From a virus, in the IMG/VR virus record IMGVR_UViG_3300030099_003103, positions 1 through 40,957 of that record: a stretch of 40,957 nucleotides of DNA; one strand, given 5' to 3'. Position 1 is the first letter of the stretch, and the number at the start of each line of letters is the position of its first letter. The notes beneath the pieces were generated by a model. The model worked only from the letters and a program-made list of their open reading frames with translations, did not search any database and was not told where the DNA came from. Positions 22,421 to 23,727 of the stretch are shown here, in pieces. The translations under genes were made by a program, and so were the position numbers.

Positions 22421-22495
22421 TGACTGATTTGAAGGTCTTGATCTCGACTCTCCCTGTTAAGGGGGAGGAGAGTCTCGATCTTCAACCATCAGTCA
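22421..22495 (+). repeat. Long imperfect hairpin
   Basis: The arms start TGACTGAT and end ATCAGTCA (8 bp perfect). TTGAAG then pairs with CTTCAA, and the inner part GATCtCGACTCTCCC pairs imperfectly with its partner around a TGTTAA loop. The two arms together span 75 bases. There is no T-run, so it is not a standard terminator. RNA processing site, genome-end structure or replication element are options. Confidence 0.55.
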
Positions 22496-22541
22496 CTCCC
22501 ACCGAACCTTGACAACTTCATAGCTCGTTGCGACGGCGAGG

Positions 22542-22660
22542 TGCAGTCATCTGCAGCAGACCGTAGAGCCTGGAGGTGCTTGACCAGTTGGCCGGCCAGG
22601 ATGTTACACTGTGTGACGGTTACACCGTCGCCGCCGAGCCACAGGCGGCATACAAGTATG
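22542..22660 (+). repeat. Chain of short hairpins
   Basis: Successive perfect stems lie at 22542-22555 (TGCAG/CTGCA), 22589-22598 (palindrome TGGCCGGCCA), 22615-22629 (GACGGT tac ACCGTC), 22630-22649 (GCCGCC/GGCGGC) and 22649-22660 (CATAC/GTATG). Such dense packing suggests a structured RNA or leader rather than coding sequence. Confidence 0.5.
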
Positions 22661-22665
22661 CTCAT

Positions 22666-22692
22666 GGCACAGAGGTCGCTCGTGACCTCGCT
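22666..22692 (+). repeat. 27-base exact repeat, copy 1
   Basis: Identical to 23082-23108. It begins GGCACAGAGGTC and contains a 6-bp hairpin GAGGTC/GACCTC with loop GCTCGT. It lies about 140 bases before the first early gene and is followed by a CCGATG/CATCGG inverted repeat (22703-22734) and then a TGCAA-loop hairpin. Confidence 0.85.
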
Positions 22693-22756
22693 CAGGGATG
22701 TACCGATGCGTCCCGCACTACATATGCACATCGGATAGGCAGACACGTGAGCGTCC

Positions 22757-22778
22757 TGCTGGGTGCAAGGTCCCAGCA
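22757..22778 (+). promoter_or_regulatory. TGCAA-loop hairpin 1, leader of first early gene
   Basis: A 7-bp perfect stem TGCTGGG/CCCAGCA has the loop TGCAAGGT. It lies 55 bases before the ATG at 22834. It is one of three hairpins with different stems but a common loop start TGCRA, each ahead of an early gene. Confidence 0.6.
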
Positions 22779-22833
22779 CTGCCATTGCTACTCCTCAGGG
22801 ACGTAGCCTTTTGTTCACTTAACTTCACACTTC

Positions 22834-23082
22834 ATGTTCACCTATTCTGCAACTCGTACCTCTGCTGCTTGCCAGTTCGTCCACGTTGACCTGCTGCGTG
22901 GCGTAGCCACTGTGTCGTTCAAGAACGGCAACATGTACGAGTACAAGAACGTGTCCCGTCGTGCTATCGCTAGCCTTATGGCTAACCCTAACATGAGCCT
23001 GGGTTTCTGGGTCAACCACAACCTGCTTGACTCCAAGCGTACCAGCTACAAGCTGGTGCCTGACTACGCTGCTGCCCGATAG
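22834..23082 (+). CDS. KTSC-domain-like early protein
   Basis: An 82-residue protein resembling a KTSC domain: a beta strand with a hydrophobic pattern (FVHVDLLRGVATVSFKNG), then MYEYKNVSRRAIASLMAN, a short segment ending in FWVNHNLL. KTSC proteins are small, of unclear role, often found with RNA- or DNA-processing genes. It is the first gene after the structured region, so it is probably expressed early from a host promoter. No Shine-Dalgarno is visible. Its TAG lies within the first bases of the second 27-base repeat copy. Confidence 0.65.
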   Translation: MFTYSATRTSAACQFVHVDLLRGVATVSFKNGNMYEYKNVSRRAIASLMANPNMSLGFWVNHNLLDSKRTSYKLVPDYAAAR

Positions 23083-23108
23083 GCACAGAGGTCGCTCGTG
23101 ACCTCGCT
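23082..23108 (+). repeat. 27-base exact repeat, copy 2
   Basis: An exact second copy of 22666-22692, beginning at the last base of the KTSC-like gene's stop codon. It carries the same GAGGTC/GACCTC hairpin and is followed 22 bases later by the second TGCAA-loop hairpin, so both copies are part of a duplicated leader module. Confidence 0.85.
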
Positions 23109-23130
23109 TGCTCACGGGATCATAGCCCGC

Positions 23131-23151
23131 TGCCAGGTGCAATGCCTGGCA
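23131..23151 (+). promoter_or_regulatory. TGCAA-loop hairpin 2
   Basis: A perfect 7-bp stem TGCCAGG/CCTGGCA has the 7-base loop TGCAATG. It lies 46 bases before the next ATG (23198). The stem sequence differs from those of hairpins 1 and 3 while the loop start is kept, as expected for a conserved RNA shape. Confidence 0.6.
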
Positions 23152-23197
23152 TGAGCCTGACACCTAGCGTGTCATGTACACTACACATTCACACATC

Positions 23198-23509
23198 ATG
23201 TACAACGTGTCACCTATGTTCGACGCACTTGCTGAGCGCTTCGATAACATGGACGAGATCAAGGACGTGGCCGAGTATGGCTGCGCTGCTGGTGTCTCAG
23301 ACTTCATCTACTCGACAGAACTGTGCGAGTTCTTTGACAAGTACGAGGACGAGATCGAAGATGAACTCGACGGTCTCGGTCTCAAGTACACAGACCTCGT
23401 TGATACTGACGAGTTCTGGACAATGCAAGAACTCAAAGAGAAAGCTGTGTGGTGCATCGTTGAGATGTACTGTCACAACCGTGTCGATGCAGCCTGCGCT
23501 GTAGCCTGA
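23198..23509 (+). CDS. Acidic early protein, unknown
   Basis: A 103-residue, strongly acidic protein (ELCEFFDKYEDEIEDELDGL) with several Cys and a hydrophobic C-terminal helix (EKAVWCIVEMYCHNRVDAAC). Acidic early proteins of T7-like phages often mimic DNA or bind host enzymes, but no family is recognised here. I chose ATG 23198 over the in-frame ATG at 23174, which would lie nearer the leader hairpin. No clear Shine-Dalgarno. Confidence 0.65.
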   Translation: MYNVSPMFDALAERFDNMDEIKDVAEYGCAAGVSDFIYSTELCEFFDKYEDEIEDELDGLGLKYTDLVDTDEFWTMQELKEKAVWCIVEMYCHNRVDAACAVA

Positions 23510-23524
23510 TCCGTTCAAGCGGGT

Positions 23525-23545
23525 GGCTAGGTGCGAACCCTAGCC
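23525..23545 (+). promoter_or_regulatory. TGCGA-loop hairpin 3
   Basis: A perfect 7-bp stem GGCTAGG/CCTAGCC has the 7-base loop TGCGAAC, and lies 38 bases before the ATG at 23584. The loop has the T-N-C-R-A pattern of a tRNA T-loop, with G instead of T at its second position. Confidence 0.6.
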
Positions 23546-23583
23546 CAGGTATTGCCTACGCACTGAGCGAGGCACTCATTAAC

Positions 23584-23727
23584 ATGTACCAAGTTTATCA
23601 ACTCACGGACGATGGGTTTGAGCAATCGCTCGGATACTATCACGATCTCAAGGACGCAGATGATGCGTTAGATGAGTGGTCTGAGTGGAGACCACATGCT
23701 TACATTGACATTCGAGAGGTTAACTGA
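23584..23727 (+). CDS. Small acidic early protein
   Basis: A 47-residue frame (MYQVYQLTDDGFEQSLGYYH, then DLKDADDALDEWSEW and IDIREVN). It is compact, acidic and aromatic-rich, with a GAGG at 23570-23573 that may serve as a weak ribosome site. Gene spacing (2 bases to the next ATG) supports it. Function unknown. Confidence 0.6.
   Translation: MYQVYQLTDDGFEQSLGYYHDLKDADDALDEWSEWRPHAYIDIREVN

Follow-up and report, generated by a model that had tools for sequence, protein, structure and literature searches.

Three short hairpins precede the first three early genes of IMG/VR virus record IMGVR_UViG_3300030099_003103, whose 40,957 nucleotides were analyzed at full length (hereafter, the window), and the question they raise is what an RNA structure could be doing in these leaders. 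The window is a fragment of a T7-like cyanopodovirus, with terminase, ThyX, a noncoding stretch and small early genes followed by RNA polymerase. Of annotated phages, Synechococcus phage S-SBP1 is nearest to it in the early region (88.5% DNA identity). Positions 1-193 belong to the capsid gene, where identity with S-SBP1 is 87%; the region from psbA to the capsid start is therefore missing from this contig, which is itself a fragment. A sequence-only reading had described three perfect 7-bp hairpins with TGCRA loops, 38-55 bases before the start codons, as selected RNA structures, two of them with 7-base loops in the pattern of tRNA T-loops. All three were found where described, 55, 47 and 38 nt before the ATG codons at 22834, 23199 and 23584, respectively:

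22757-22778, + strand: hairpin 1, TGCTGGG-TGCAAGGT-CCCAGCA, 8-nt loop
22834-23082, + strand: early gene 1, 82 aa, phrog_7365, with a weak, sub-threshold KTSC domain match
23131-23151, + strand: hairpin 2, TGCCAGG-TGCAATG-CCTGGCA
23199-23509, + strand: early gene 2, counterpart of S-SBP1 gp02
23525-23545, + strand: hairpin 3, GGCTAGG-TGCGAAC-CCTAGCC
23584-23727, + strand: early gene 3, 47 aa, counterpart of S-SBP1 gp03

Among all perfect hairpins of at least 7 bp with loops of 3-9 nt in the 41-kb window, only these three carry TGCRA loops of 7-8 nt. When 260 cyanopodovirus records (2.3 Mb) were searched for G-T[T/G]CRANN-C hairpins with stems of at least 5 bp, 131 were found on the coding strand and 3 on the other, a split that is not due to chance. 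Both checks made in relatives, for covariation and for hairpins at equivalent sites, favored the original idea: covariation was strong, and such hairpins were present in many of these phages, which supports selection on a structure with a tRNA-like T-loop.

What the sequence-only reading overlooked is that the flanks of the hairpins also pair, so that a three-way junction is formed. The hairpins are the T-arms of larger RNA elements of around 50 nt that carry no annotation. An outer "acceptor" stem and a small D-arm-like hairpin complete each element, with T-arm and acceptor adding up to 12 bp as in tRNA; 3' of this stack come an unpaired base (N), a U (usually as UUG), a second stem-loop and the start codon. 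The copies in the window are as follows:

22738-22787, + strand: element 1; acceptor 22738-22742/22779-22783, T-arm 22757-22778, N at 22784, TTG at 22785-22787
22745-22754, + strand: D-arm-like hairpin of element 1, ACG TGAG CGT
22787-22807, + strand: stem-loop 2 of element 1 from the fold, the predicted 5'-end structure of a processed mRNA
23110-23160, + strand: element 2; acceptor 23110-23114/23152-23156, T-arm 23131-23151, N at 23157, TGA at 23158-23160
23115-23129, + strand: D-arm-like hairpin of element 2
23158-23174, + strand: stem-loop 2 of element 2, TGACAC CTAGC GTGTCA
23504-23554, + strand: element 3; acceptor 23504-23508/23546-23550, T-arm 23525-23545, N at 23551, TTG at 23552-23554
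around 23511-23522, + strand: D-arm-like hairpin of element 3, CCG TTCAAG CGG
23553-23574, + strand: stem-loop 2 of element 3, with loop ACTGA, of the conserved ACTGA/AATGA class

The outer stems differ in sequence (GGCAG/CTGCC, GCTCA/TGAGC and GCCTG/CAGGT), and the 5' strand of element 3 overlaps the stop codon of gene 2. In phage 9515-10a one copy reads AGGTAG / GCAT TAAGG ATGC / GACGGG TTCAAGT CCCGTC / CTACCT / A / TTG, followed by a stem with loop AATGA. The T-arm conforms to the canonical tRNA pattern (GG-TNCRANN-CC, 5 or more bp). However, most elements have only 8-28 nt between the acceptor 5' strand and the T-arm and lack an anticodon arm, no CCA is encoded after the discriminator-like base, where N-UUG is found instead, and the outermost pair is mismatched in many of them. 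Single-sequence folding gave the junction and the second stem-loop in all six sequences tried, and the minimum free energy folds supported all three elements of the window, with the same junction in element 1. The fold energies of the three window copies are only moderately below those of shuffled sequences (z of -0.86, -1.74 and -2.95, the last for element 3), and for that reason the case rests on comparison rather than on stability.

Comparison was done in several ways. RNAalifold, run on a plain MAFFT alignment of 28 elements, recovered the three helices, with compensatory changes in 13 of 15 pairs and a covariation score of 0.757, against 0.174±0.022 for shuffles, which ignore kinship among elements, and 0.08-0.15 for slid controls. 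These 28 elements had been picked for a paired T-arm and acceptor, while the D-arm helix played no part in their selection; in this helix 83% of the cells pair and double changes are seen in all four pairs. The acceptor stem is backed independently by a register test that used no structural model. At 92 sites, the 5-mers at nt 7-11 and 8-12 after the T-loop had an exact upstream complement at 33 (around 5 in shuffles), complementarity falling to background from nt 10-14 onward, and TTG/TTA began exactly at nt 14 in 41 (background around 3). Complements reaching only to nt 12, with TTG/TTA at nt 14, indicate 12 bp, one unpaired base and then U, which at the sequence level is the geometry of the T/acceptor arm, discriminator and trailer of a tRNA precursor. 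Covariance models agreed with this picture: R2, a held-out model built from distant phages without the window or its nearer relatives, returned exactly the three sites in the 41-kb window and no others up to E=10 (E=0.0048, 0.084 and 7.2e-6 for elements 1 to 3), while the original model, R1, scored them at 44.6, 45.6 and 49 bits. The three-way fold is well supported.

The trailer is equally regular. Of 66 elements in contigs selected by RNA polymerase, 61 have U at +1 after N, and in a set partly selected for TTR 102 of 103 have it at +1 or +2, so that a U within 2 nt after the discriminator, as in RNase Z substrates, is present. A stem-loop of at least 6 bp begins no more than 5 nt after N in 36 of 67 elements (1-7 in controls), and the distance from the element end to the ATG is most often 29-34 nt.

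In the tRNA elbow, D-loop residues G18 and G19 meet T-loop residues 55 and 56. The D-like loop of the elements ends in GG when the T-loop begins with TTC and in AG when it begins with TGC, a joint change of the kind expected from such an elbow. GG in the loop or linker occurs in 53 of 60 TTC-class elements versus none of 24 in the TGC class. Calling loop ends with Watson-Crick stems only, AG was seen in 16 of 22 TGC hairpins and 0 of 26 TTC hairpins, and GG in 15 of 26 TTC and 0 of 22 TGC hairpins. Alignment column pair 19-36 is G-C in 26 of 28 elements, and contacts equivalent to 18-55 and 19-56 of canonical tRNA therefore appear to be kept. Both loop classes can coexist within one genome (e.g. 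L076, L077 and 9515-10a), and element 1 of the window (ACG TGAG CGT, TGC) aligns with L077:992-1041 (ACG TCAGG CGT, TTC). We infer that the switch between classes may represent the exchange of a G18-U55 pair for A18-G55. Position 55 of the T-loop is G in the TGC class, unlike in nearly all tRNAs, and an A18-G55 elbow pair is rarely, if ever, known from tRNAs.

Genuine tRNA-Asp genes, identified with ARAGORN, are found in the early region of other phages, followed by TTG/TTA and a stem-loop, mostly CACTGAG or CAATGAG, i.e. by the same trailer as the mimics:

tRNA-Asp(GTC) with TTG/TTA stem-loop trailer, early region of cyanopodovirus-like contigs: L172, L277, L285, L286, L290, L291, L294
same arrangement, early region of further cyanopodovirus-like contigs: L300, L304, L306, L318, L333, L335

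Genes that follow these tRNAs have homologues (30-54% identity) that follow mimics in other phages, the gene 2 family among them; the apparent gene 2 counterpart behind the element at L077:1360-1412 likewise has homologues that genuine tRNA-Asp genes precede. This exchange is the strongest functional hint, since it suggests that either a tRNA or its mimic will serve for whatever recognizes the leader.

RNase Z binds its substrates at the elbow, with cleavage 3' of the discriminator (PMC4810234); in Bacillus subtilis the enzyme is stimulated around 200-fold if one of the 2 nt that follow the discriminator is a U (PMC10100781). For RNase P, the elbow is the point from which the length of the T-arm/acceptor stack is gauged (PMC4919913), and tRNA-like mRNAs are among the substrates that it accepts (PMC4919913, PMC11143913). 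Cyanobacteria possess RNase Z, RNase P and RNase J (PMC10989914). The elements are probably compact tRNA mimics in mRNA leaders that punctuate phage mRNA by way of host tRNA-maturation enzymes, offering to them the three-way junction, 12-bp stack, elbow co-variation, N-U plus stem-loop trailer and replaceability by tRNA-Asp that the comparisons above support. These enzymes would recognize the elbow and gauge the 12-bp length; the cut by host RNase Z, activated by the following U, would fall behind the discriminator-like N, and RNase P might cut before the acceptor stem. A polycistronic viral transcript would thereby be split, and the downstream mRNA would gain a short 5' leader, UUG plus stem-loop, slowing 5'-end-dependent decay, a role in cyanopodoviruses like that of RNase III sites in T7. 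The RNase Z cuts predicted in the window are at 22784/22785, 23157/23158 and 23551/23552, and the 5' ends predicted in P-SSP7 (AY939843.2) are 650, 1047, 2606 and 20681; in S-SBP1 they are predicted at 635, 977, 1373 and 19346. Among the functions first proposed (recognition by a protein, control of translation or marking of cleavage sites), the last fits best, given that the likeness to a tRNA precursor extends through the discriminator and the following U. The acceptor stem, D-arm-like hairpin, 12-bp register, trailer stem-loop and exchange with real tRNA genes all go beyond that first reading.

Other explanations have to be weighed against cleavage by tRNA enzymes. An uncut element that acts in translation, promoting or timing it through binding of the ribosome, EF-Tu or a tRNA-binding protein, would agree with the short distance to most start codons, with the lack of Shine-Dalgarno sites in the downstream genes noted in the sequence-only reading, and with the fact that elbow mimicry also attracts the ribosomal L1 stalk or elbow-binding proteins (PMC4810234). 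Nevertheless, an N-U(U) motif fixed directly behind the 12-bp stack, and tRNA genes that share this trailer, point to 3' processing rather than ribosome binding, and the elements of capsid leaders lie around 110-190 nt from the start codon; we consider such translation control unlikely. The recurrence of copies along the early operon and before the late capsid and psbA genes could also be explained by a nut-like site, at which a phage or host protein would act in antitermination or transcript stabilization with no role for tRNA enzymes. This would need neither a 12-bp ruler nor a discriminator-U motif nor exchange with genuine tRNAs, and no candidate protein was found, which makes it improbable in our view. 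We give a similarly low likelihood to the RNase P cut on the 5' side being the main event, with the RNase Z side incidental. Although this enzyme measures the T-arm/acceptor stack and takes tRNA-like mRNAs (PMC4919913, PMC11143913), it is the 3' side that bears the strongest signature in the sequence, N then U; on the 5' side only an upstream hairpin was examined, and a guarding hairpin upstream of the acceptor stem was not significantly enriched (31 of 111 versus 18-31 in controls).

The resemblance of the T-arms to tRNA 3' halves, the usual integrase target, the presence of true tRNAs at comparable places and a Prochlorococcus element (L371) near an integrase gene might point to decaying tRNA genes, or to recombination or integration targets acting as DNA. 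This reading is strongly disfavored by the 131:3 coding-strand bias and by the covariation that all stems and the non-helical elbow contact show across unrelated sequences, which decay would destroy; it seems very improbable. Intrinsic terminators were rejected as well, there being no U run after the hairpins, which continue as ATTGCT, CTGACA or ATTGCC into a second hairpin. Whole tRNAs were equally rejected, ARAGORN and Rfam being negative in the window.

With regard to distribution, elements were found upstream of early genes, of the capsid gene and once of psbA in many cyanopodoviruses, including P-SSP7 and 9515-10a. R1 gave 43, 57 and 7 matches in three locus sets retrieved mainly by RNA polymerase, invariably on the coding strand and with a few low-scoring genuine tRNAs among them, and 160 matches in contigs retrieved by sequence pattern. 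Among isolate or fosmid records of cyanopodoviruses, 9 of 19 carry elements. None was detected in the other ten (S-RIP1, S04-C24, S28-C3, 7B11-B, WH11-B, S-B28, S-CBP1, S-CBP4, DSL-LC07 and S-SRP01), so the element is not essential for the group. The psbA-capsid interval carries elements in P-SSP7, P-SSP2, S-SBP1, S45-C4, S-CBP3 and S-TIP37, and in S45-C4 there is also one before psbA:

L379:833-883, L380:1000-1049, L381:843-893: capsid (and S45-C4 psbA) leader elements
L382:2349-2400 and 989-1032, locus read on the - strand: capsid (and S45-C4 psbA) leader elements
L383:828-878, L384:717-765: capsid (and S45-C4 psbA) leader elements

A strict-pattern search of 257 Gb of genome contigs gave 23 matches, mostly in unrelated taxa, where they are presumably due to chance, and one in a Prochlorococcus mobile element.

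Both tRNA-like structures and tRNA punctuation are already known. None of 4227 Rfam families matched at the gathering score, nor at E≤5 in the 22500-23700 region, and no prior description of the element was found in a literature search; an anticodon-less, multi-copy tRNA mimic of phage mRNA that alternates with real tRNAs thus appears to be new. The element shares with tRNA (RF00005) and mitochondrial punctuation the TNCRA T-arm loop, 12-bp stack, elbow and discriminator-U trailer, as well as its position between or before genes and its substitution by real tRNAs, but it has neither anticodon arm nor CCA, and its D-arm is only 3-5 bp or a GG-bearing linker. The RNase III sites of T7, which mark early gene boundaries and also occur in late leaders, consist of long double-stranded hairpins. 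The phage element occupies the same kinds of place in a T7-like genome and presumably splits transcripts too; however, no T7-type site (around 20 bp of continuous double strand) was found in the folds, where the longest helix is the 12-bp stack, nicked by the junction, and R1 matched nothing in T7. In MALAT1 mascRNA, plant viral tRNA-like structures and tmRNA, mimicry likewise recruits tRNA enzymes to a longer RNA (PMC4919913, PMC11143913), as proposed for the phage element, but these end an RNA or are stable RNAs, whereas the phage has many leader copies per genome, each with its own 5' stem-loop. The manA, wcaG and PhotoRC-II RNAs are also structured RNAs in cyanophage leaders, although they are T4-like or marine-sample motifs at metabolic or photosystem genes (PMC2864571).

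The broader proposition, to which we give about even chances, is that phage-wide, anticodon-less mimics, interchangeable with real tRNA genes, enlist host RNase Z and RNase P to cut mRNA and so set transcript ends and stability for early genes, capsid and psbA, with an A18-G55 elbow pair that is rare or not known at all in tRNAs. If true, bacteriophages would have their own counterpart of mitochondrial tRNA punctuation, and the splitting of transcripts in cyanopodoviruses would be explained, with exact predicted cut sites in the cultured phages P-SSP7, 9515-10a, S-SBP1 and S-TIP37. The elements would define a natural minimal set of requirements of tRNA enzymes (12 bp, elbow, N and U), the A18-G55/G18-U55 exchange would be a natural test of elbow pairing rules, and an unannotated RNA family, common in marine viromes, would be added.

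Some further observations were made. The uncultured Prochlorococcus single-cell contig L371 carries an element with trailer stem-loop (1386-1434, - strand) downstream of a 506-aa integrase gene, possibly in a phage-related mobile element. Farther downstream of the element, a conserved stretch like CCGTCATGACGGTGGGATAGACCACAA is common to the capsid leaders. Public CDS annotations overlap the element or stem-loop 2 at L001:649-924 (S-SBP1 gp01 start), L018:1975-2301 (P-SSP2 CYLG_00016) and L011:412-720 (S-CBP3 SYPG_00001), and are probably mis-annotated. In the window, a perfect 27-nt repeat, GGCACAGAGGTCGCTCGTGACCTCGCT, which holds the inverted repeat GAGGTC..GACCTC, is present at 22666-22692 and 23082-23108; the second copy, four bases upstream of element 2, resembles an insertion of around 22 nt relative to contigs L020, L022 and L023. 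Finally, a long imperfect hairpin with 14-nt arms (86% complementary) at 22440-22480, in the noncoding stretch before the early genes, is a possible terminator or packaging-related structure.
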